A stretch of DNA of 64,000 bases. It comes from Amylostereum areolatum (lineage: Eukaryota; Basidiomycota; Agaricomycetes; Russulales; Stereaceae). The stretch spans positions 1,163,163 to 1,227,162 of the forward strand of contig SAXG01000009.1 of NCBI GenBank assembly GCA_012932865.1, given 5' to 3'. Every line of letters starts with the position of its first letter. The first letter of the stretch is position 1. The notes beneath the pieces are model-generated. The model saw only the letters and a list, made by a program, of their open reading frames with translations. It did not search any database and was not told the origin of the DNA. Positions 32,439 through 47,007 of this stretch are shown here, piece by piece. Made by a program: the position numbers and the translations under genes.

Positions 32439-34013
32439 TCATTCGGTATCGATCCCATTCCACGCAACATCCGCCAGACCCTCTAACATCCCCATGAGCT
32501 TACGTGGAGGCTTTCGACATTGGTCAATGACGATGGACAGGCGTTGACCTGCGTCGCGACGACCCTTGGCCACGGCTACCAGCAGCGTTTGAACCTCGGA
32601 CGGTTCTTCCAGATGCTCGTCGCGATCCTCGACAGCATCGGCGTGTATGACCAATCTGGTCAATAGCGGGAACGGATAAGGTTCCTCCAAGGGCCGTACT
32701 GGTGGGATGACGCGGGGTAGAATGGATAGCAGGACCACCTCCTGTGCGACCCTGATCGTCTTGACCGACGGAAATCCTACAGGTGCCAGCAAGTTGGCGG
32801 TAATGTCCGACAGGACCTTGCGGAGGCTTTCAGGCGATTTCGGCATACGTTGCAATTCAGAGGGGAAGAAATCGGCGGTGACGTCCAACGTGAGCGTGGT
32901 GATGCTCTCGAGAGGGATAGCCGACTTGACGGAGGCGACGGCGTCGTCGCAAATCTGTGCCTTCGAGCCCCACGACAAATAGGAGGGCGGAAAATCCTCG
33001 TCGAAACAATGCTCCGCCTTGCTGATATCCTCATGCCAAGCGTGGATATCCAGCCAACGCGATAAACAGAAGGTGGCAGTGCGAAGGGGGCCAAGTTTTT
33101 TCTCTGTTTGACGAATGAATGCCTTCCAAGGCGAAGGGTCCTGGAAGATTGGGATGTGTTGCGTCACTTGGAGGCGCCCCAGGGATGGTGTCTCTAGGTA
33201 TTCCAAAAGCTGGCTCACGTCGGAAGTGGCCGCAGTCGGGTCGTCGATCTCCACGATGAAAGTCTTCAGTGTTTTGAGAGTGGTGGTAGTCGTAGAAAGG
33301 GACAGGGACTTCGGCTTCGTTGATGCATTTCTCATCCTGGTGACTTTGAGCGTAAGGAGGTTCGGGACCTTCTGCAGCATTTGGAGCAGGGTGGGGATGG
33401 GTGTGATGTCAGAGCAGTCGTGCAGGACCTCGAGGCGATCCGATAATAAAGGCGACGACGGGGAAAGGATCAAGTGCCAGCCAATGTGGAGTATACGAAG
33501 AGGGGGTGTTTTCTTGGAGAACAAGTCATCCGGTATACGCTGAGCTTTTACTCCGCGGGCGAAAAGCCATTCGTCGTATTCGATGTCCAACTCCAAGGTT
33601 TCCAGCTGATCGGCATTTGCGGCCATCTTCAACTGCTGAAAGCAATTGGAAAGGTCCCCGCTTTGACTGATAACATTCAATTTCCGGAGGCGAGGAAGAA
33701 TCTCGGATATAGGTGTCATGCCGTTATCTCCTGTTGAGTCGATGCGCCAGTAGAGGTCGATGGAAGCAGAGAGAGAGTGCTTGAGATAGAATGGAACCCA
33801 GGCAGGGGGTACGCGATGGTTGATATTACGCCACAAAATGGCATATTCCAGGGCGGCCACGCGCCACCAACGACAGACATGCAGAACCTGCGGAATCCAA
33901 GACCTGTGGGGGCCGTCTTTGTCTCCAATGCTATCCTTGCACCGAATGAGGAATATCTTCCAAAGGATATCGAAAGGTATCCTGTTGCTTGAACAAGCCA
34001 CGTTGTCGCCCAT
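32439..34013 (-). CDS. F-box protein with leucine-rich-repeat-like body (copy 1)
   Basis: Probable substrate receptor of an SCF ubiquitin ligase; target unknown. Single exon of about 524 codons. I chose the ATG at 34013 (MGDNVACSSNRIPFDILWKI) because the paralogue at 45030-46625 starts the same way (MSDNVAPPINNLPVEILLKM) and because an intron-like acceptor (CTTACAG) lies just upstream. The F-box spans about residues 9-65: IPFDILWKIFLI, then QVLHVCRWWRVAALEYAILW. Irregular LRR-like strands follow (LRKLNVISQSG, LETLELDIEYD, LRILHIGWHL, LLTLKVTRM). This architecture is a large, fast-evolving family in Agaricomycetes. The frame is intact. Confidence 0.8.
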   Translation of the reverse strand: MGDNVACSSNRIPFDILWKIFLIRCKDSIGDKDGPHRSWIPQVLHVCRWWRVAALEYAILWRNINHRVPPAWVPFYLKHSLSASIDLYWRIDSTGDNGMTPISEILPRLRKLNVISQSGDLSNCFQQLKMAANADQLETLELDIEYDEWLFARGVKAQRIPDDLFSKKTPPLRILHIGWHLILSPSSPLLSDRLEVLHDCSDITPIPTLLQMLQKVPNLLTLKVTRMRNASTKPKSLSLSTTTTTLKTLKTFIVEIDDPTAATSDVSQLLEYLETPSLGRLQVTQHIPIFQDPSPWKAFIRQTEKKLGPLRTATFCLSRWLDIHAWHEDISKAEHCFDEDFPPSYLSWGSKAQICDDAVASVKSAIPLESITTLTLDVTADFFPSELQRMPKSPESLRKVLSDITANLLAPVGFPSVKTIRVAQEVVLLSILPRVIPPVRPLEEPYPFPLLTRLVIHADAVEDRDEHLEEPSEVQTLLVAVAKGRRDAGQRLSIVIDQCRKPPRKLMGMLEGLADVAWNGIDTE

Positions 34014-34396
34014 CTTGTCGTCTGTAAGCGGAGAGCGGATGAGCATACCTCGCAGATTTTGCGTGAGGATAAACTACGTTACCGGTCAGAAGTAGAGGAT
34101 TGAATTGGGAGGGATGTTTGTGAGTGCGCGTGTCAAACAGGCGACGACGTGAAGAGTCTAGCGATTGGAGAGATAGGGAGTCGTAGCAGGCAGTTCGGGG
34201 TGTCAAGGGCTTCTTATAAGGTCGCGTACTATGGGGTCATTATGTGAATGAGAACGGAGTGGCCCGTGGCACAATTGGAGAAGAACGTTTCGGTGTGGCA
34301 CAATGAAGAAGGAGGCATGCAAGTGGAACACTTGAAAGAGGCCCCGAGGGAGCCACAGGTCATGTAATAGCAAAAGGCAACCTGGGACAATACAGA
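34014..34396. other. intergenic, promoter of F-box copy 1
   Basis: Spacer upstream of the F-box gene and downstream of the hydrolase. It probably contains a 5' UTR intron of the F-box gene ending near 34022. No other feature is visible. Confidence 0.4.
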
Positions 34397-36664: not shown

Positions 36665-36672
36665 GGTGAAGC
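36665..36672. repeat. 8-bp target-site duplication, left copy (GGTGAAGC)
   Basis: GGTGAAGC directly abuts the left terminal inverted repeat and is repeated exactly at 43535-43542 beyond the right one. Confidence 0.9.
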
Positions 36673-36705
36673 AGGACCCCCGAAACACCCGCCAGAGGTT
36701 AGATC
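36673..36705 (+). repeat. 33-bp terminal inverted repeat, left
   Basis: Begins AGGACCCCCGAAACACCCGC. It is identical over 33 of 33 bases to the reverse complement of 43502-43534. Confidence 0.95.
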
Positions 36706-36886
36706 CGCCCCAGGCGGTCGGACCCGGCCAAAGTCGAGGTCTGAGAGGGTCATTTGGCCCCGGGTTTCCTCCTCGGACCTGCCTCGCAGGACCATTTGGC
36801 CCCGGGTCTTTCATCGGACCTTACAGAAGTGTTTATTTGCGAGATTTAGCATTATAAACATACGTAGTGGTATAGTACGCGTGTAA

Positions 36887-39800
36887 TCAAGCCCTGTCTT
36901 CGGCTGGCAAGTCGTTCTGTCCTTTCTTCGCACGGACATGCATCATCTTGATGGCTTTCTGTAAGTCCGCTTCGCGCCCAAGTAGATAGCGAAGGTACTG
37001 CGAGTCTGCCTCTGATATCGAGTAGTTGAGTCCTTGTAGCTGAGGCTGGGCAGTCAACGCGACGATAAACGCCGATGGAGCGAGTATAGTATAGCGTCGA
37101 ATCTCGAGCCGGCGAGATGTCGTCTTCTTAGGAACGAGACGGAAGTTCCTGCGAGACTGAGGGGAGCTAGGCTCGAAAACCTCGACGATAATATGAGAGG
37201 GTGCCGTGATCTTGGTGGCCTCGGATACCCAGCCATGTGCGCCGTACTCTCCTCCGCTTTTCACGTAGAGATCAAGAACTAAATGCGGGGTGTGTGAATA
37301 AGCATGTGAAGGACACGATCGCGGTGAAGACACACCTCGAGCCAACTGTATCCGACCCTCGTAGAACACCAGCCCGAATTCAAAGCCAGGCGCCGCTTTC
37401 AGAGCCCGGTCTTCGGATATCCCAGCGTTCTCCATGAATGAAGGCAGGTTCAAAGCTTGAATAGCGCGCTTCCGTTTGGTTTGCGCCTACGGAAAAACAG
37501 CCACAGTCCATGACGAGTGGGTTAAGACAACACCATCAAAGACGGATGGCAAGAGTAACGCACCGAGCCAACCCGACCAGCTGCTGCAAGCTCAGCGTTC
37601 GCGCTGTTACCTGCCGGCCGTTTCTTCCAACGAATAGAGCGATCCTGACCGGTGCTTGGACCCTGTTCTCCCGGCGTCTTCAACATCTCACGGTACTGCT
37701 TGAGGAGACGTACTCGCAGCGACACATCGGTCGACTGCTTCTGTTTTGACTTACGCGTACCGGATTCCGCCTGTCGGGTTTGATGCTTCTTACGAAGTTG
37801 GACAAGCATGTTGAGGTCCAAGTCGGCGCAATCCGCACTTGAGAGTGTCGTTCTTTCTTGTGGATCCTGTATATCTGCTAACTTGTCGGCAAGAAGCGCG
37901 CCCAACCGTTGAGCATCTTCTTCCCATATCGCGTCGATCTCTGGATCGTCTTCGTCGGGCAAGCTATCACTACCATATACTTCACATCAGTCACACCTGT
38001 CCCAGGGAGAGAAAGGGAAATATACATTCTCATCGTCTGTTCGACGGAAAGTGCTGTTGAGGCGAATGCTAGTCCATTGAGAGCGAGGTCTTCTTGATGA
38101 GTAGTATGCTCATTTTCCCATAGGTCAATCATGTCTTGTAGTCTGCGATCATCTTCGTCATCCAAATCATCGCCGTCGAACTGGTGAGTGTCGAGGTCTG
38201 GCAGTTCCGCATCGTCATCCACGTCCATCTCGTCAATGACGTCCGGGTCAGCCGCGCCACCCGACAGGGAGTCAAGCATAGATCGCACTGACGGAAGCTT
38301 TGTCGACGTGACATGCCAGTCGCGCATGTCTACCCCCAAAAGCTCCCACAAACTGGAAGCCTCCCCATATGCGGCGATTGCAATCTCGTTAATCTCGTCG
38401 TCGGATGGAAAGGTGGACAGGGCAAGGAGGTCGATGTCACCATCGTCTTGGTACGTGTGGTTGTACCCACTCGCGCGTGCTTTCCCATCCGAGCCTTCGT
38501 TGAAAAGGTGGTCCTCACGAAGGCGAACATGAAGCTTGCGTATCATGTACTGAAAATCAAGAGCGTTGAAGTCCGTAACGATTTGCCGTGACGCGCCAAA
38601 GACATGTTCGCAACCAGAGGTTCCAAGTTTCCAAGGTAGGAGGGGATGTTTCCCCTCGTACTGGTCCCGAAATATGTAGATTGCTTGCATGAGGCCGTCG
38701 ACGAGAAACTTGATGATGTCGAGTGTATCTTTTGAAAGGCACTGTGTTGACTTGGAGTATTCTGCGCGTCCCAGGAAACCTATCCACATTTGTGTGAAGT
38801 AGTGGACGCGAAGGACAATGTGGACACGATCAGCCAAGAGGATTCTACGATTGAGGTAGGCATCGGGGAGCTCGCCATAGACGTAACAGTACACAATGGT
38901 ACCGAGACGGTCGGAGTGATGGGTGGTGAGCCATTCTAGTGTTTGCGCAGAAAACACTCGGGTGGCAGCATTATCATCTTGACGGTCGAGTTTTTCTACG
39001 TCTCGATGATATACTGGACTGGCGGGACCATCACTGCCTGTATCGGCGAATGCGACCCTCCGGATGTCACTGTAAGCGGCAACATGCTCACCCAGTGTCA
39101 AGACACGAGCACCGGAAAAGAGTGCGTTCCGGAGAGATTTCCGACCGTGTTCAGGATCCTGGCCAATGGCAACGCCGTATAAACGGTCCCCGACCTTGAA
39201 ATAGGCAACACGGACGTGATAGTCTTGGCTGGGGTCGACGGGATGGGGGATAGTGTATTCCACAACCTTCTCGGCCCAGCTCAAAAGATGACACTCGATT
39301 TTGCGCTCCTTTGCAGATCCATCCACAGCGTACATCGAAACATTGATGTTGCGCTCAAGAAGTCCGCCGAACAAGATAGTCTTGAGGTGCTCTTTGAGGT
39401 CATCTGCATCTGCACTCGACGAAATGGGAAGGGCGGCCATGACAATCGTCGGGACTCCAGGTGCGACTGCCTGAAGAGTCCATACACGAATCTGTTAGCG
39501 TATGAGAGATGAGCCAGGGTTTCATGTGGTTTCAGAGAGCAATAAGACGAACCTGTGTCGCCTTTTCTATCTCACCACGACGTAGCGCAGCTGTGAGCTG
39601 GTCTGGATCTGGAAGCACAGGAGGAGGGGATATTGTGCTCCCCAGCAGAACGTACTGGCCTTGATCAGCATCCCAATAGGGATGCAACGACGGCGCAAGC
39701 TTCGTGTCGTCGCAGGCGAGGGCGACGGGGCCATCGTACTTCAGTTTCTGGAGAAGTTTGACTACGCGCTCAAAAGTGCGCTCTTGAATTCCAACAGGGA

Positions 39801-41762
39801 ACCCAGGTTCGTGTGAGCGAGATATTCTAGATGGCACTGATACTGAGCGACAAACCACAGGAATGAGCAGGAGTACTTACTGCAATGTGCGAGGGTCAGG
39901 TAAGGGCAAGACCTTTCGAACAGCTTGGTACGCTCGAGGGCTACGGATATTAAGGATATGTGCCCACTCGGTGACACTGGGTGAGTAGCGCATCCCGCGC
40001 TTGTCCACGCCACGCCGTTCTTTGTCTTTCGAGTCAACCATTGCTTTTACCAGACCGGTGAACACAGGTTCATTGTCGTATTCGCCGTTCAGGACCCCTT
40101 CACTAAACTGGAGGAGTGGTTGGCGCGGATTCTAAGGCAAAATAGCTAGATCAGCGGCCCGGATACAGATGAAGAGAAATAGTAAGATACTTCTTTGTAT
40201 GCATCAAGCAGCGCTTTCAGACCGGGGATGGTTTGCGCGTAACGGGCTGCTTGCTGTTCAGCGGAACGGAGTTCAGATTTTGGAGTAAATTTCGCATTCT
40301 CCGGGTTTTGCTTCTTGGCCCGCGTGAGGGCGTTCTTGAAGACCTTATCGGAAAGGAGTTTTGCGCACGCCGAACAGGGTGAATATGACCCAGGATTGCT
40401 GTCGTGCGGGACCTTGATTAAGTCCTGGCAATCTGTGGAAACAACTCGATCGAGATTGAGGTCATTGCGCCACCGGTACCGCATTTGTTCAGCGGCCTCA
40501 ACGGATTTCTTTTGGCTTTTGGTGAGATGAGCATACTTCTCGACGGAGGGGAACAGCTCTCGTGTGAGAACGGTAACCGAAGGTGCCCCACCGCCTTCGC
40601 TGAAAGTCCTCTCAAGATATGTTTTGACATCGGCAGATTTTGCACCGGAAAGTCCAGGACAAGGACGATCGATCATAGGCATTGGAACTCGAGAGCGAGA
40701 GGAACTTGAAGCGGAACCAGTGCGATAGAAAGCGTCCAATGTTTGTACTACCCGAGGCCCAGACTTCCGACCTGCACACGGCTTTTGTTTTCCCGTCTTC
40801 CTGAGTACATGCCGTTTGAACGCGTTTACTTCGTGAAGAGCATCCATTATGATCGTTTTGTTGCAAGCGGAGTGTGTGACGGACAATGGTGCTTCGTCAT
40901 TGAACCGAGCGTCAGGATCCACTTCGCGGATTTTCTCACGGAACCTTTCCACGGCATCACGCCTCGCGGTGTACGTTCCATCGGCTATGCTTTGCTTTGC
41001 TAGTCGCGCTTTCATCGCCGTTCTCGAGTTCCCAACATTAGCGGGAGCACCCTCTTCATCGACCTTCACATATCCTGGTAGTTGTCGCCTCTTCGCTGAC
41101 CCCGAAGGTCCCCGAGTGCATTGATCAGATGCCGGTGGTGCAGCTTCTCGTGAGTCGTTACTTGAATCAGAGACACTGATGTCGCTGAGTGTGCGTTTTT
41201 TCGACAGGTTGGAGACCGTCTTCGTGACCTTCGCTCTGACCTTCTTCGCTGTTTTTGCCAACACTCCCTTCGCATACACCTTCTTCGTCGCCGAAAAGAT
41301 GTCGAAGACCCGGAGTTTTGCTAGGCTGCTCGTTGAAGAAGATGCGGAATGGGTATGGCCTTGAATAAGATTTGACTTGGAGGACTCGGGAGAGCTAGTG
41401 GGGCTCGTTGAGAGTCCTGAACCGGGTACGTTGTTCGCTGCAGACGGAACTGGTGCAAAATCGGACGTAGGACTAGCTGACGGTTCAGCGTTCTGCATGA
41501 AGTCGATTGACATCATGCTGGCAGGTGGGCTTGTTGACTGTCCGTCGACAGAGGTATGTTCAACACCGTCATCGAGAGAGGTCCCCGATGCAGAGAAGAT
41601 TGAGTCGCAGAGTAGATCGGCTGTATCAGCTGTCATCTCCCAGTCATCCGAGATGTTTGTTGCAGTTGGACTCTTGGGACGGTTCTGCAGAGGCGCATTC
41701 TTCTTCTTCCTTTCGTTGTCACTCATGGCTGCTTTCTCCTCCCCTAGGATTCTCTCCATCCC
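36887..41762 (-). CDS. P-element/THAP9-like transposase, multi-exon and intact
   Basis: Cut-and-paste transposase. N-terminal exon (from MERILGEEKAAMSDNERKKK, 41762, or the inner ATG at 41726) is Ser-rich and basic, then has zinc-binding-like VTHSACNKTIIMDALHEVNA FKRHV and PCSACAKLL segments. After an intron (40134-40192) comes KRGMRYSPSVTEWAHILNIR and SPRAYQAVRKVLPLPDPRTL, matching the THAP9/P entry block. Candidate catalytic residues are Asp in ALACDDTKL (near 39710), Asp in GQDPEHGRKSLRNALF (near 39160) and Glu in SGCEHVFGASRQI (near 38590). Six introns all keep frame: 40134-40192, 39844-39897, 39493-39553, 37961-38023, 37480-37556 and 37279-37336 approximately. The C-terminus reads AKKGQNDLPAEDRA with the stop at 36887. 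About 1,450-1,500 residues. No frame damage seen. Confidence 0.82.
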
Positions 41763-41847
41763 CGAGGGTAAACCCTGAGCGCGCAAAACTACCGAGGGTG
41801 TAGCATCCTTCTGTACGTGGATCGACGCTCGAGTCAGTATTGTGCGT

Positions 41848-43125
41848 TCATACTTCATGGAATCTACTGACCTGGACCCCATGTCTTGTAGCAAGGCGAA
41901 TGAACCACCGAGCTCGATGTACGACGGTCGTTTGCTGTGTCCACAACGGTTCGTTCAGTACGGCATGGGCGATCGTGTTTGCTGTACACACGCCGCACGA
42001 TATGTGGTCCTGTTGAGATCCGTGCGTCACTCCATCTTCGATCCACTCATACTCGCTCCCCAAACGAACGCGGAGCCAACGCTGAAGTTTGTTCAGATCC
42101 TCGCGTGGAAAGGGCAACCGTAAACTGTCGCCTACATGAATGTAAGTTGGTCTACACCATGCGCCGCCATGCTCAGATTGCTTACCGCAGGAAATAGTTC
42201 GCCGCTTAGGGTCGACCTCAATAACCACAAAATGCTTCGCGGACTTGAGGTACACAGGTATGAGCAAAGGCCTTCCCTCATTGAGCAAGAGTCGCTCGAG
42301 CTTGATGAGAAAGCGAGGCTGCTTGGAAGAATAATGTTGATCGTCCTCAGCCTTTCGAAGCTCGTGCCAAACCTCGAGTCCTCGGACTTCATGTGAGGAG
42401 GGATGAGTACCAGTTTCCATTTCTTCGGCTACCCAATGAACCATCATATCGACAGTGATGGTGCTGACCATTCCACCTCCCAGAAGTTTGAGAAAATCGA
42501 ATGTTGTTGCGCCTGAACCCTTGACGGCTGTTGGCGCATTCCATGGTAACTTGTCCAATATCCTGCCAGCCTCCGCAATACAACCCTCAGCCTGAGTTCC
42601 ATCTGATACCCCTCTATCCTGTTTTTCCAGCCAAGATCTCGCGTTCCTACAGGCTTTTGATGCCTCAAGGACTTTATGCATCCGCATCCAGTAAGTTACC
42701 ACCCAGAGCGGGTAGCGGCCGTTCTTGTACTGCGGGTCGCGTACTGACGACATGCCATCTAGAATTTGTTGTCCTACAATCCTGTGGGCGTCTTCCACAA
42801 ACCACCGAGGAGGGATATCGCGTTTGTCCAGGTGAGTGTACGCATGGTCCGGGGGTTCCTTCGAGAAGGCTGATTCTGCCCCTATTTGGGACACGAGGGC
42901 AGTGCTTCGTTCCGGAAGTGGGTATGCAAGAAATTCAAGGACAGGGAGTTCAGGGGAGGGGAGAATATCTGTTTCGATTTCGGAGGGAATGGCAAGAAGA
43001 GTTTGAACATGTTGCGCGAGCTCAGGTGGGATATCGGTGTCGGGGTATTTCCTTCCAGTTGCAATCCATTGGTGTTCGTCAAATGCAGGTAGATCTGCGT
43101 CATCTTCAATGGAGGTGATGTCCAT
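41848..43125 (-). CDS. Ulp1-type (C48) SUMO protease-like cysteine peptidase, transposon-borne
   Basis: Adenain/Ulp1-fold cysteine protease carried by the transposon. Start MDITSIEDDADLPAFDEHQW at 43125. The catalytic set is visible: His in KSAKHFVVIEVDPKRR (about residue 300), Asp in IHVGDSLRLPF (about 335), Gln and Cys in QQDHISCGVCTANTIAHAV (Cys about 377). The N-terminal part contains YPLWVVTYWMRMHKVLEA and DFLKLLGGGMVSTITVDMMV, seen in related transposon-borne proteases. Read alone it stops at 41848. However, a GTCAGT donor after RLATRHGVQ (about 41871) and an acceptor GTACAG (about 41812) would remove that stop and join KDATPSVVLRAQGLPSGMER in the transposase frame. Protease and transposase may therefore be one fused polypeptide. 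Confidence 0.82.
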   Translation of the reverse strand: MDITSIEDDADLPAFDEHQWIATGRKYPDTDIPPELAQHVQTLLAIPSEIETDILPSPELPVLEFLAYPLPERSTALVSQIGAESAFSKEPPDHAYTHLDKRDIPPRWFVEDAHRIVGQQILDGMSSVRDPQYKNGRYPLWVVTYWMRMHKVLEASKACRNARSWLEKQDRGVSDGTQAEGCIAEAGRILDKLPWNAPTAVKGSGATTFDFLKLLGGGMVSTITVDMMVHWVAEEMETGTHPSSHEVRGLEVWHELRKAEDDQHYSSKQPRFLIKLERLLLNEGRPLLIPVYLKSAKHFVVIEVDPKRRTISCGKQSEHGGAWCRPTYIHVGDSLRLPFPREDLNKLQRWLRVRLGSEYEWIEDGVTHGSQQDHISCGVCTANTIAHAVLNEPLWTQQTTVVHRARWFIRLATRHGVQVSRFHEV

Positions 43126-43501
43126 GTGGAAAGAAGAGGCGTAGATGTGAGGAAATGGCGTGGGGTACTACAACTTTGAGTGCAAGCCTCCCCGACGCTA
43201 GCCGTCGCTGCCCAATGCCAGCGCACGCACCACCTTCCAGGATGGGTCAATTTCCTCACGAAAAGCACTGTACTTGAATTATGCAAAGACTATGCCTGTC
43301 GTGCACAAGGATTGGACAATGTCTCACTATAAAATCTACTAAAATCTACTAAAATGGACCCCGGGCCTGGGATCGGACCTCCAGCGCCGGGCCAGTCCCC
43401 ACCCGGACCTGCCTCGGACCTCGAGGCCGATTTTGGGCACTCAGCCCCGGGCACCTCCTCGGAGCTCCGGCGCTGACGCGCCATTTGGCCCCGGGCCTCG
43501 A

Positions 43502-43534
43502 GATCTAACCTCTGGCGGGTGTTTCGGGGGTCCT
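43502..43534 (-). repeat. 33-bp terminal inverted repeat, right
   Basis: Exact inverted partner of 36673-36705, ending ...GGGGGTCCT on the plus strand. Confidence 0.95.
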
Positions 43535-43542
43535 GGTGAAGC
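43535..43542. repeat. 8-bp target-site duplication, right copy (GGTGAAGC)
   Basis: Exact copy of 36665-36672, directly abutting the right terminal repeat. Confidence 0.9.
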
Positions 43543-43574: not shown

Positions 43575-43589
43575 TAGGGTTAGGGTTAG
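43575..43589 (+). repeat. telomere-type repeat, left edge (TTAGGG units)
   Basis: TAGGGTTAGGGTTAG, two and a half units of the TTAGGG telomere repeat used by most filamentous fungi. It reads toward the palindrome centre and marks the outer edge of the left arm. Confidence 0.8.
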
Positions 43590-44801
43590 TCCGACGTACG
43601 AACCTAAAAAAACCCCTCACAGACTCGTGCAAGCCACCATGAAGGCAGGCACGAGCCGTGAGGGGAAAAAAAAGAAACATCTCCCGCCCCGAAGAAAAGT
43701 ACAGTAAAAAAAAGGAGACGCCGACTGAACGAGAAGCGTCAGTAACGGGCGTATGCCCGAACTCGGCCTCGACCTCCCGAGCAGACAAACGAAACCCGAA
43801 GATGGAGATCGACGAACCAGGAATGAAGCGTCATCGAGCCCGTTTAAGGAGGCCCCCTTAACAGTGTACCGAGTAGGGCGCAAAAATGGCGTATCCTACT
43901 TCCGCTGGGTTCCGCCGCTGCAGACGGCAACGAAGAACGGGCGTATGCCCGAACTCCGCCTCGACTCCACACCTGGACGAGCGAAATCCCGGAAAGGCAC
44001 GCACTCGGCCAGCCCATAAGGGCGGGACACGAGGAAACGGCGGGAGGTGGGAGTGGAAAAAGGAAGAAACAGACGAGGGGGGAACGGGGGCGGCAGTCTG
44101 GAGAGTACGCAGAATGCTGCGCGGTATTTATACGCGCTGTGGTGGCGGTAGCACGTGATTGACGCGTCGCGTCCTTGTTGATTCCGCCGAGTTTAAACTT
44201 TAAACTATTCTGTTGATTGCGTGTCGCGTGACCGCGCGCACCGCCACCACAGCGCGTATAAATACCGCGCAGCATTCTGCGTACTCTCCAGACTGCCGCC
44301 CCCGTTCCCCCCTCGTCTGTTTCTTCCTTTTTCCACTCCCACCTCCCGCCGTTTCCTCGTGTCCCGCCCTTATGGGCTGGCCGAGTGCGTGCCTTTCCGG
44401 GATTTCGCTCGTCCAGGTGTGGAGTCGAGGCGGAGTTCGGGCATACGCCCGTTCTTCGTTGCCGTCTGCAGCGGCGGAACCCAGCGGAAGTAGGATACGC
44501 CATTTTTGCGCCCTACTCGGTACACTGTTAAGGGGGCCTCCTTAAACGGGCTCGATGACACTTCATTCCTGGTTCGTCGATCTCCATCTTCGGGTTTCGT
44601 TTGTCTGCTCGGGAGGTCGAGGCCGAGTTCGGGCATACGCCTGTTGCTGACGCTTCTCGTTCAGTCGGCGTCTCCTTTTTTTTACTGTACTTTTCTTCGG
44701 GGCGGGAGATGTTTCTTTTTTTTTTCCCCTCACGGCTCGTGCCTGCCTTCATGGTGGCTTGCACGAGTCTGTGAGGGGTTTTTTTAGGTTCGTACGTCGG
44801 A

Positions 44802-44816
44802 CTAACCCTAACCCTA
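44802..44816 (-). repeat. telomere-type repeat, right edge (CCCTAA units)
   Basis: CTAACCCTAACCCTA, inverted partner of the left-edge telomere-type repeat. Confidence 0.8.
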
Positions 44817-45029: not shown

Positions 45030-46625
45030 TCAGTTCAAATCCACTTCTTCCACGCCAAGAAGGTGCCATGCAACCTCTGCAAAACCTTTCAGCTCGTATA
45101 TGAGCTTAATCGGACGTTTCAAGCATTGGTCGATGATAACGAGGAGGGGCCGCCCCGCGACGTGACGAGCCTTGACCACCGCAGCAAGCAGGGCTTGAGG
45201 TTCGGACCACCCCTCTAGCTCCTCGTCGCAATCCTCGACCTCATCGGCGGGGATGATAAGTTTCTTCAGAGAAGGGAAGAGGTAGGTGCCTTCGGAGGGG
45301 GGTACTGAAGGAATGGTTCGTGATAGGATGTGTAGTGAAACCATTTTTGGCAGCAGTCGGAACGTTTCAACTGCGTGCATTGAAGATAGGGTTGCCTCCC
45401 ATTCGGAAGGTGGGATGCAGTTGGTGCGAATCCCCAACGTGAGCGTGGTGACATTGCCGAGGGGGATGCAGGGGATGGATAACATGAAGGAGGATTGTAT
45501 GTCTTGAATTTGTAACAAGTTGTTGGTGAAATTAGGGTTATAATATACCCACGAATGCCACGACAAGCAAGCTGGAAGCGGGTTACTGCCGTCACAATTT
45601 TCCAGCATGTCTTCGTGCCAGCAATGGATGTTTAACTCCGACGCCTGGGATAGGCAGACTGTGGCGCTGCGAAATGGGCCTTGCGCCTCTAGCTGACAGA
45701 TGAATGCCTTGAGAAGAGATGTGAATTCTATAAAAAGGTCGACATCTGTTGTGGCGCGGCGGGGTTCGATCCCCGATATGATCTGGATATGCTCCAAGGA
45801 CGGCGCCTTCACATACTTGAAGAAATGGAGCGCGGCTGACAGGGACTCCCGATCCCGTAACAATACACGTAACACCCTCAAGCGGGAAAGGGTGACAGTC
45901 TGAAGATGCGCCAGTCGTTCGCCAAGGGGAATTGCTCTTTTCGACAATGACCACTCGAGAATGAGGAGGTTTGGAACCATCTGCAATTCCCGTAAAGAAG
46001 AAGTAATGGATTTGCCGTCAGAGGTGTCGTGAAGTTCCTCCAAGTGTGTGGATAGCAAGGTTGAAGATAGCTCAACTCGAACACGTTTGCCAACGCGGAG
46101 TATGCGCAGACGAGGGCTTTGACTGAAGAATAGGTTGTCCGGGATACGAATGCGTGGTTGGGGCGCAAACTGAGCAGCGTTTATGCGCCATAAGCTGTCG
46201 TAGTTGATTTCGAGTGTCTCCAATTGTGGGGCAGGTCTTGTCATTAATACGTGCAAACTAGGAGCCTCCGAGAATTGGATATGGAGTTCTCGAACACGCC
46301 TTAGATGTTGGAAAATGGATGGCGAGAGGCCACTTCCTTGTTGGGGGGAGCTGTAGTTCCAGTGAAGGCGAAGAGGGAGTGTAAGGGAATGTTCGAGATG
46401 TAGGAACTGCCACTCGCGCGGAACTCGGTTGGTTATGACACACCAGAGAGTGGGATCGTTTCTGGCGATGGAACGCCAAAACTTGCAGACATGCATGATC
46501 TGTCGGAGCCAAGAGGTGCGACGATCGGTGGCATCTTCAACGCTGTCCGTACGCCGAATGGCAAACATCTTCAAGAGGATTTCGACCGGTAAGTTGTTGA
46601 TGGGAGGAGCTACATTGTCGCTCAT
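45030..46625 (-). CDS. F-box protein with leucine-rich-repeat-like body (copy 2)
   Basis: Paralogue of the F-box gene at 32439-34013, same strand and also single-exon. The ATG at 46625 (MSDNVAPPINNLPVEILLKM) matches the other copy's start. The F-box continues MFAIRRTDSV then RQIMHVCKFWRSIARNDPTL followed by WCVITNRVPREWQFLHLEHS, closely echoing NHRVPPAWVPFYLKHSLSAS in copy 1. LRR-like strands: LETLEINYDSL, LRILRVGKRV, LLILEWSLSKR, LRVLRVLLRD. The C-terminal block LIIPADEVEDCDEELEGWSE corresponds to LVIHADAVEDRDEHLEEPSE in copy 1. Likely an SCF substrate adaptor; target unknown. The frame is intact. Confidence 0.8.
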   Translation of the reverse strand: MSDNVAPPINNLPVEILLKMFAIRRTDSVEDATDRRTSWLRQIMHVCKFWRSIARNDPTLWCVITNRVPREWQFLHLEHSLTLPLRLHWNYSSPQQGSGLSPSIFQHLRRVRELHIQFSEAPSLHVLMTRPAPQLETLEINYDSLWRINAAQFAPQPRIRIPDNLFFSQSPRLRILRVGKRVRVELSSTLLSTHLEELHDTSDGKSITSSLRELQMVPNLLILEWSLSKRAIPLGERLAHLQTVTLSRLRVLRVLLRDRESLSAALHFFKYVKAPSLEHIQIISGIEPRRATTDVDLFIEFTSLLKAFICQLEAQGPFRSATVCLSQASELNIHCWHEDMLENCDGSNPLPACLSWHSWVYYNPNFTNNLLQIQDIQSSFMLSIPCIPLGNVTTLTLGIRTNCIPPSEWEATLSSMHAVETFRLLPKMVSLHILSRTIPSVPPSEGTYLFPSLKKLIIPADEVEDCDEELEGWSEPQALLAAVVKARHVAGRPLLVIIDQCLKRPIKLIYELKGFAEVAWHLLGVEEVDLN

Positions 46626-47007
46626 GTTGTTCTGCGGTGGAACCGAGTTCAAGAACCGTCCTGGTAAGATGGTGGGTACTTACGACGTAGTCGCCGTGGA
46701 AAGAACCACTCGGTAGAAAGAAACGGGAATCCTGAATGTGTGCAATGTCGATAGTAGCTGGACGCTGATCAGTGATCGGCCCGTGAGACAGCATGGCGGG
46801 TGAGCACCCCACTGACACCTCCATCGAGACATCGCCAAGAACTCACTTCGAGGTCTTCGTCCTGTGTGGATTATTCCGAATGTTTGGTCTATTGATGGTC
46901 AGCGGCCTACAACGGTGTGGTGTGCGGCGTCGCCGAATGACACAACGGCAACACAAAGGTAGCAAGAAGACGTGGGAGGAGGATAAGCCAGCGAGCCAAT
47001 CAGACGC
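46626..47007. other. intergenic, promoter of F-box copy 2
   Basis: Upstream region of the F-box gene. No other gene, repeat or clear box seen. Confidence 0.4.

Follow-up and report, generated by a model that had tools for sequence, protein, structure and literature searches.

Element A, a 6,862-bp insertion in the genome of Amylostereum areolatum, is very probably an autonomous cut-and-paste transposon of the P superfamily that encodes one predicted protease-transposase fusion protein. P elements, known mainly from animals, are the textbook case of an invading transposon. In kind, the fungal element belongs with them; what is new about it, as read from its sequence, is the fusion to a protease and an apparently altered nucleotide pocket. 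The element lies within a 64,000-nucleotide stretch of DNA (the window), which corresponds to C172:1163163-1227162 in a 57-Mb assembly of 182 contigs. The copy counts given for the genome are lower bounds.

Structure of the element and its gene

The terminal inverted repeats (TIRs) of the element pair at 33 of 33 bp, and an exact 8-bp target-site duplication (TSD), GGTGAAGC, is present on either side, so that both of these features of the preliminary description of the window were borne out. The repeat search reports 34 of 34 paired positions, as the outermost C/G pair is also complementary, but these two bases belong to the TSD copies. The likelihood that a perfect 33-bp inverted pair and an exact 8-bp repeat would arise by chance is judged to be negligible. 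All five CCCGGG sites of the element are located no more than 190 bp from an end, with nine further sites across the window's remaining 57 kb. The components of the element are as follows.

36673..43534, gene on minus strand: full-length family A element of 6,862 bp (repeat and genome searches)
36665..36672, no strand: left 8-bp TSD, GGTGAAGC (exact repeat; single GGTGAAGC at the C56 site)
36673..36705, no strand: left TIR, 33 bp (inverted-repeat search)
36759..36821, no strand: two subterminal CCCGGG repeats, candidate transposase-binding sites
43359..43495, no strand: three subterminal CCCGGG repeats, candidate transposase-binding sites
43502..43534, no strand: right TIR, 33 bp (inverted-repeat search)
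43535..43542, no strand: right 8-bp TSD, GGTGAAGC (exact repeat; single GGTGAAGC at the C56 site)

The minus strand carries one open frame of 1,919 codons, uninterrupted by stops and predicted as nine exons separated by eight introns of 54-77 nucleotides (nt). The splice sites were placed from the sequence and by comparison with homologues, not from RNA. The unbroken minus-strand frames described previously were found to be open and splice-compatible, while the exon count of "at least seven" was changed to nine. A first model of eight exons and 1,937 amino acids (aa) was replaced, because comparison with the homologues exposed 54 nt of extra in-frame sequence within the protease domain, and it was by this that the ninth exon was recognised. 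The predicted protein contains, in order, an Ulp1-type protease, two Cys/His clusters, a P-type helix-turn-helix (HTH) and an RNase H transposase domain, the last with a long insertion between the second Asp and the Glu. The exons, all on the minus strand, are listed below.

42186..43125, minus: exon 1, ATG at 43125; Ulp1-type protease, His298 codon at 42234-42232
41872..42131, minus: exon 2, Ulp1 Asp315 (42129-42127), Gln353 (42015-42013) and Cys359 (41997-41995)
40191..41810, minus: exon 3, linker plus two conserved Cys/His clusters, putatively zinc-finger-like
39881..40131, minus: exon 4, P-type HTH, PF12017 match at 39880-40002
39553..39826, minus: exon 5, start of RNase H, first catalytic Asp1063 (39711-39709)
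38026..39491, minus: exon 6, Asp1172 (39323-39321), D1227xxH1230 (39158-39147), RQDDNAA motif and Glu1410 (38609-38607)
37564..37969, minus: exon 7, C-terminal region
37336..37486, minus: exon 8, C-terminal region
36887..37278, minus: exon 9, stop codon ends at 36887

Relationship to P transposases

To collect homologues, residues 960-1560 of the first model were searched against a protein database. The search scored 7,999 sequences, of which 156 had an E-value of 0.01 or better and 120 were listed. Most of the listed homologues are named as hypothetical proteins, and their genera are ones we take to be Agaricomycetes. For the P superfamily, the transposase of the Drosophila P element, confirmed by comparison with PDB 6p5a, served as the reference; here too, 156 relatives were found and 120 listed. 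From these 120, a P profile was built with the 72 proteins that were at least 500 aa long, after exclusion of four with odd domains or vector sequence. Part of the 72 proteins are assigned to Drosophila or to further arthropods given by name, and many others are records of unnamed source.

In the Pfam scan, the window protein matched the P-type HTH model PF12017 with 30.3 bits against a cut-off of 23. When the genome was scanned with the same model, all six full-length elements scored above the cut-off, element A with 35.9 bits and the five copies of a sister family, B, with 43 bits; two distant copies, on contigs C95 and C140, scored below it. The profile of the fungal core aligned by hhalign to the 72-protein P profile over 254 columns with a probability of 96.5% and an E-value of 8.9e-10, compared with probabilities of 0.6% for the reversed profile and 0.7% for the best of 10 column shuffles. 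With the HTH removed, the probability was 95.2% (E 2.7e-8; reversed control 0.18%), and the score was 60.1 compared with 22.3 for the best of 20 column shuffles. Omitting one typed family B row gave 96.4% (E 1.2e-9), or 95.2% (E 2.8e-8) when the HTH was also removed.

The alignment paired D1063, D1172 and D1227xxH1230 with D230, D303 and D339(2)H of the fly enzyme, respectively. The pairing of E1410 with E531 was seen in sub-significant segments only, and the Glu was placed by motif. All residues of the signature D-D-[C/D](2)H-E were present in the window protein and in 101 of the 120 listed homologues; the P signature, D-D-D(2)H-E, was taken from PMC8230255. The catalytic triad proposed in the preliminary description, ACDD / QDPEH / CEHVFG, was corrected at its middle member: QDPEH corresponds to the D(2)H motif, whereas AVDGS holds the second catalytic Asp.

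Several results weigh against the assignment to the P superfamily. The C-terminal segment containing the Glu, when compared alone, gave a non-significant 2.4%, with 3.8% for its reversed control. The fungal profile scored 31.2 against Drosophila P alone, close to the 30.3 of the best of 20 shuffles, and in hmmsearch the reversed fly sequence (3.0 bits) exceeded the real one (1.2 bits). The P transposase 6p5a was not recovered when the PDB was searched with the fungal core profile, and no P transposase was found with the 26-member profile described below. Only the comparison of profile with profile was decisive for the P label, the tests on single sequences being unconvincing. The Pfam model of the P RNase H matched none of 26 whole relatives at E-values up to 1 and gave a weak match in two of 10 trimmed relatives (best E 0.052). 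In the genome scan, neither this model nor the GBD model matched anywhere, and as the controls were also silent this result is uninformative. A THAP domain was not matched in Pfam scans of the window protein or its relatives; many of the 120 listed P records likewise lack PF05485.

A predicted N-terminal protease domain

The N-terminal region was not recognised as a protease in the preliminary description; the predicted product is a single 1,919-aa fusion whose N-terminal part is an Ulp1-type protease. When the PDB was searched with a profile of 26 members, yeast Ulp1 (1euv) was found at an E-value of 3.5e-13, together with other Ulp1/SENP entries. The window protein has the Ulp1 catalytic set H298, D315, Q353 and C359. 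The protease region was present in 110 of the 120 listed homologues, and the His was kept in 107, the Gln in 106 and the Cys in 106 of the 120. PF02902 matched 12 of the 26 relatives and was seen in none of the 120 listed P relatives of Drosophila P. One observation counts against the protease assignment: the window protein alone did not match the Ulp1 Pfam model. Between the protease and the HTH lie the two Cys/His clusters; the corresponding region of the fly protein, preceding its HTH, holds the THAP and dimerisation domains (PMC7776569).

The A and B proteins were compared over 1,716 codons. The proportion of synonymous differences (pS) was 0.77, at which synonymous sites are saturated, and the proportion of nonsynonymous differences (pN) was 0.31, with values of 0.32-0.34 for the protease part and 0.25-0.26 for the HTH/RNase H part. 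Selection on the protease and transposase parts alike would give such a pattern.

The nucleotide pocket

Eight residues of the fly transposase that contact GTP are named in PMC7776569. Five of these were placed on the fungal alignment of 121 rows (window protein, family B and 119 homologues), with F443, D444 and N447 left unplaced. The positions of K400 and V401 were occupied by Asp-Asp in all 121 fungal rows. Among the 72 P proteins, 64 have V and 67 have K, R or N at these two positions, and four have D at 401. S409 was kept in 97 of the 121 fungal rows, D528 was replaced by E in 102 and by S in the window protein, and K385 landed in an alignment gap.

Empty sites and related copies in the genome

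When the assembly was searched with both 1-kb flanks of element A, each was 100% identical over 1,000 bases to contig C56, where the flanks join across one GGTGAAGC without the element. C56 thus resembles an insertion-free version of the region, either the alternative haplotype or a duplicate, and the C56/C172 pair may represent the two nuclei of a dikaryon. As only one of the two matching assembly stretches contains element A, a recent jump is probable.

The sister family B comprises at least five copies of 6,848-6,849 bp. Identities were measured with the B copy on C172 as the sole reference, and not among the other four; relative to it, these four were 99.94-99.97% identical, with 2-4 differences each, including a length difference of 1 nt. 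Exact 8-bp TSDs flank four of the five: TTCACAGC, TGAGTGCC, CAGGCAGC and GGAACACC. Clean empty counterparts with an intact junction were found for three of the five, two on C169 and one on C147. The counterpart of a fourth copy, on C120, differs in its left flank; the match there is confined to the right flank, the duplication and a few bases.

The same ends are found on short, non-autonomous copies of 491 or 501 bp, which have exact 8-bp TSDs at all six scored places. Two of these places, on C143 and C94, represent one insertion seen on both contigs and were counted once. An exact 8-bp TSD was thus found at 10 of 11 distinct scored insertion sites (A, 1/1; B, 4/5; short copies, 5/5). The places on C99 and C40 where only a left end was found were left unscored. 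These left ends, at C99:700439 and C40:26748, are family-A-like (84%), with no recognisable right end within the fetched 9.9-kb stretches. Distant P-like copies, 33-36% identical, are present at C95:2624017-2625156 and C140:170252-171394, where the open frames span 448 and 501 aa, and a small P-like fragment is present on C13.

Not all of these data favour recent movement of A. A single full-length copy of family A was found in the assembly, and the multi-copy burst belongs to family B, whose best-matching DNA stretch with A is 834 bp long and 68% identical. Furthermore, the B copy at C172:945489-952336 is flanked by aatggggg and CCTGCATC and so has no TSD, and a search of the assembly gave no empty counterpart for it; an exchange of flanks between copies is a possible cause. 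Element A is a real and complete transposon that probably moved recently. The other copies and empty sites that the preliminary description had proposed to look for were both found, and its suggestion of recent mobility is supported by the C56 site and by the empty counterparts of most B copies.

Distribution among mushrooms

A and B group as sisters in the tree, closest to three proteins of Bondarzewia. The preliminary description regarded a characterised P-superfamily element of this type in mushrooms as something new. As the 120 listed relatives indicate, P-type proteins are not rare there. Two Pleurotus ostreatus proteins, P0060 and P0069, belong to the fungal P-type family. A 2016 survey gives Tc1-mariner as the sole cut-and-paste superfamily in P. 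ostreatus (PMC4905642); its strains are possibly other than those from which the two proteins come. For a P-type transposon fused to Ulp1, no earlier description was found among titles and abstract openings in a library of open-licence literature, with Repbase and subscription papers outside the search. Two candidates for an earlier report were set aside, namely an insert in Pleurotus MSH4 (PMC7641404) and the active transposons of Marasmius (PMC9674265); the fungal P-type family is not described in the accessible portions of these papers.

Features next to the element

A near-perfect palindrome of 1.24 kb (window 43575-44816) begins 40 bp from element A. Its 484-nt arms are 99% complementary and are separated by a 90-nt centre, two TTAGGG units are found at its opening, and copies of it are present on contigs C56 and C139. 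On either side of A there is a minus-strand open reading frame (window 32439-34046 and 45030-46652) that, from its sequence, we take to be F-box-like. A protein search with the frame at 32439-34046 returned no relative except itself.

Discussion

The ends, the duplications, the empty counterparts and the homology together point to cut-and-paste transposition with 8-bp staggered insertion. In the mechanism proposed, the transposase would bind the element at its 33-bp ends and at the subterminal CCCGGG repeats, D1063, D1172 and E1410 would excise the element, and insertion would occur at sites cut 8 bp apart. The short copies, having the same ends, would be mobilised in trans. The protease most likely has one of two roles, and this is the least certain step. 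It may lift SUMO-dependent control from the element or from its transposase, a role that we put forward tentatively; that it cleaves the long protein into its working parts is a somewhat more doubtful proposal.

The closest comparison is with Drosophila P (6P5A), which shares the order of HTH and RNase H, D/D/D(2)H in register, an 8-bp TSD and repeats inside the ends. The TIRs are also of similar length, 33 bp in A and 31 bp in the fly element (PMC7776569). Unlike Drosophila P, which is 2.9 kb long (PMC7776569), element A is 6.9 kb long and has the predicted N-terminal Ulp1 protease and the Cys/His clusters, with no THAP domain found; its protein also differs in having D and D at the K400/V401 positions and K385 in a gap. 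The D-D-D(2)H-E signature is shared with THAP9 and zebrafish Pdre2 (PMC8230255). Human THAP9, in contrast, is without flanking TIRs (PMC7776569), whereas the fungal element has TIRs, a TSD and the predicted protease fusion. With the SUMO proteases Ulp1 and SENP (1euv), the window protein shares the profile match and the H-D-Q-C residues, and it differs in that the predicted protease domain is joined to a transposase.

The assignment of the element to the P superfamily had to be weighed against other transposon classes. The KDZ (Kyakuja/Dileera/Zisupton) elements are DNA transposons of fungi and common in mushrooms. Some of them make 8-bp TSDs, an example being Zisupton-1_PGr, a Dileera (PMC12730594), and KDZ transposase pieces are abundant in this genome (155 PF18758 matches, many with stops). 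The KDZ model, however, gave no match to the window protein at E-values up to 10, nor to its relatives; no match fell at A or any B copy among those listed in the genome scan. With the strong P profile comparison added, it is scarcely credible that A is a KDZ element. A hAT label was not supported either, as no hAT model matched in the Pfam scans at E-values up to 10; no hAT profile comparison was made. The P label of the preliminary description holds on the PF12017 score, the hhalign E-value and the lack of a KDZ match. A closer rival reading places A outside P, in a superfamily of its own that has a distant ancestor in common with P. Apart from the two weak matches noted above, the core gives no hit with the Pfam models of P RNase H and GBD, no THAP domain was found, some of the GTP-contact residues are altered, and alignment reaches significance in the HTH and in the first half of RNase H but not in the C-terminal segment. 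The spacing between the first two Asp residues is also greater, 109 compared with 73 in Drosophila P (by the residue numbers of PMC8230255). Set against this, homology covers the HTH and the N-terminal part of RNase H, in the same order and with the catalytic residues in register, and the 8-bp TSD and TIRs are like those of P, which makes a separate superfamily unlikely.

Two further explanations concern the gene and its activity. The protease and transposase could be two adjacent genes that are joined only in the gene model, as gene-prediction software may fuse neighbours, the model of A rests on sequence and not on RNA, and 10 of the 120 homologue records lack the protease region. Nevertheless, a single frame runs over a splice-compatible 61-nt intron, both parts occur together in 110 of 120 deposited proteins, and pN between A and B is low in both parts; two separate genes are thus very unlikely. 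Alternatively, A could be an insertion that appears intact but is dead or silenced, and the single full-length family A copy in the assembly would fit this. Its frames and ends are nevertheless intact, the counterpart site on C56 is without the element and the sister B copies are near-identical, so this explanation, although to be taken seriously, is the less probable one. An autonomous P-superfamily transposon encoding a fusion protein is accordingly still the reading put forward for A.

As a tentative synthesis, the Agaricomycete branch of P may encode a protease-transposase polyprotein with a rebuilt nucleotide pocket that perhaps needs another cofactor or none, and its Ulp1 domain may relieve the transposase, or the chromatin it sits in, of SUMO control. 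The P branch with the predicted built-in SUMO-type protease spans many mushroom genera. Its apparently changed GTP pocket would offer a natural test of why the P transposase needs GTP, and the protease fusion would offer a test of whether a transposon turns deSUMOylation against its host.

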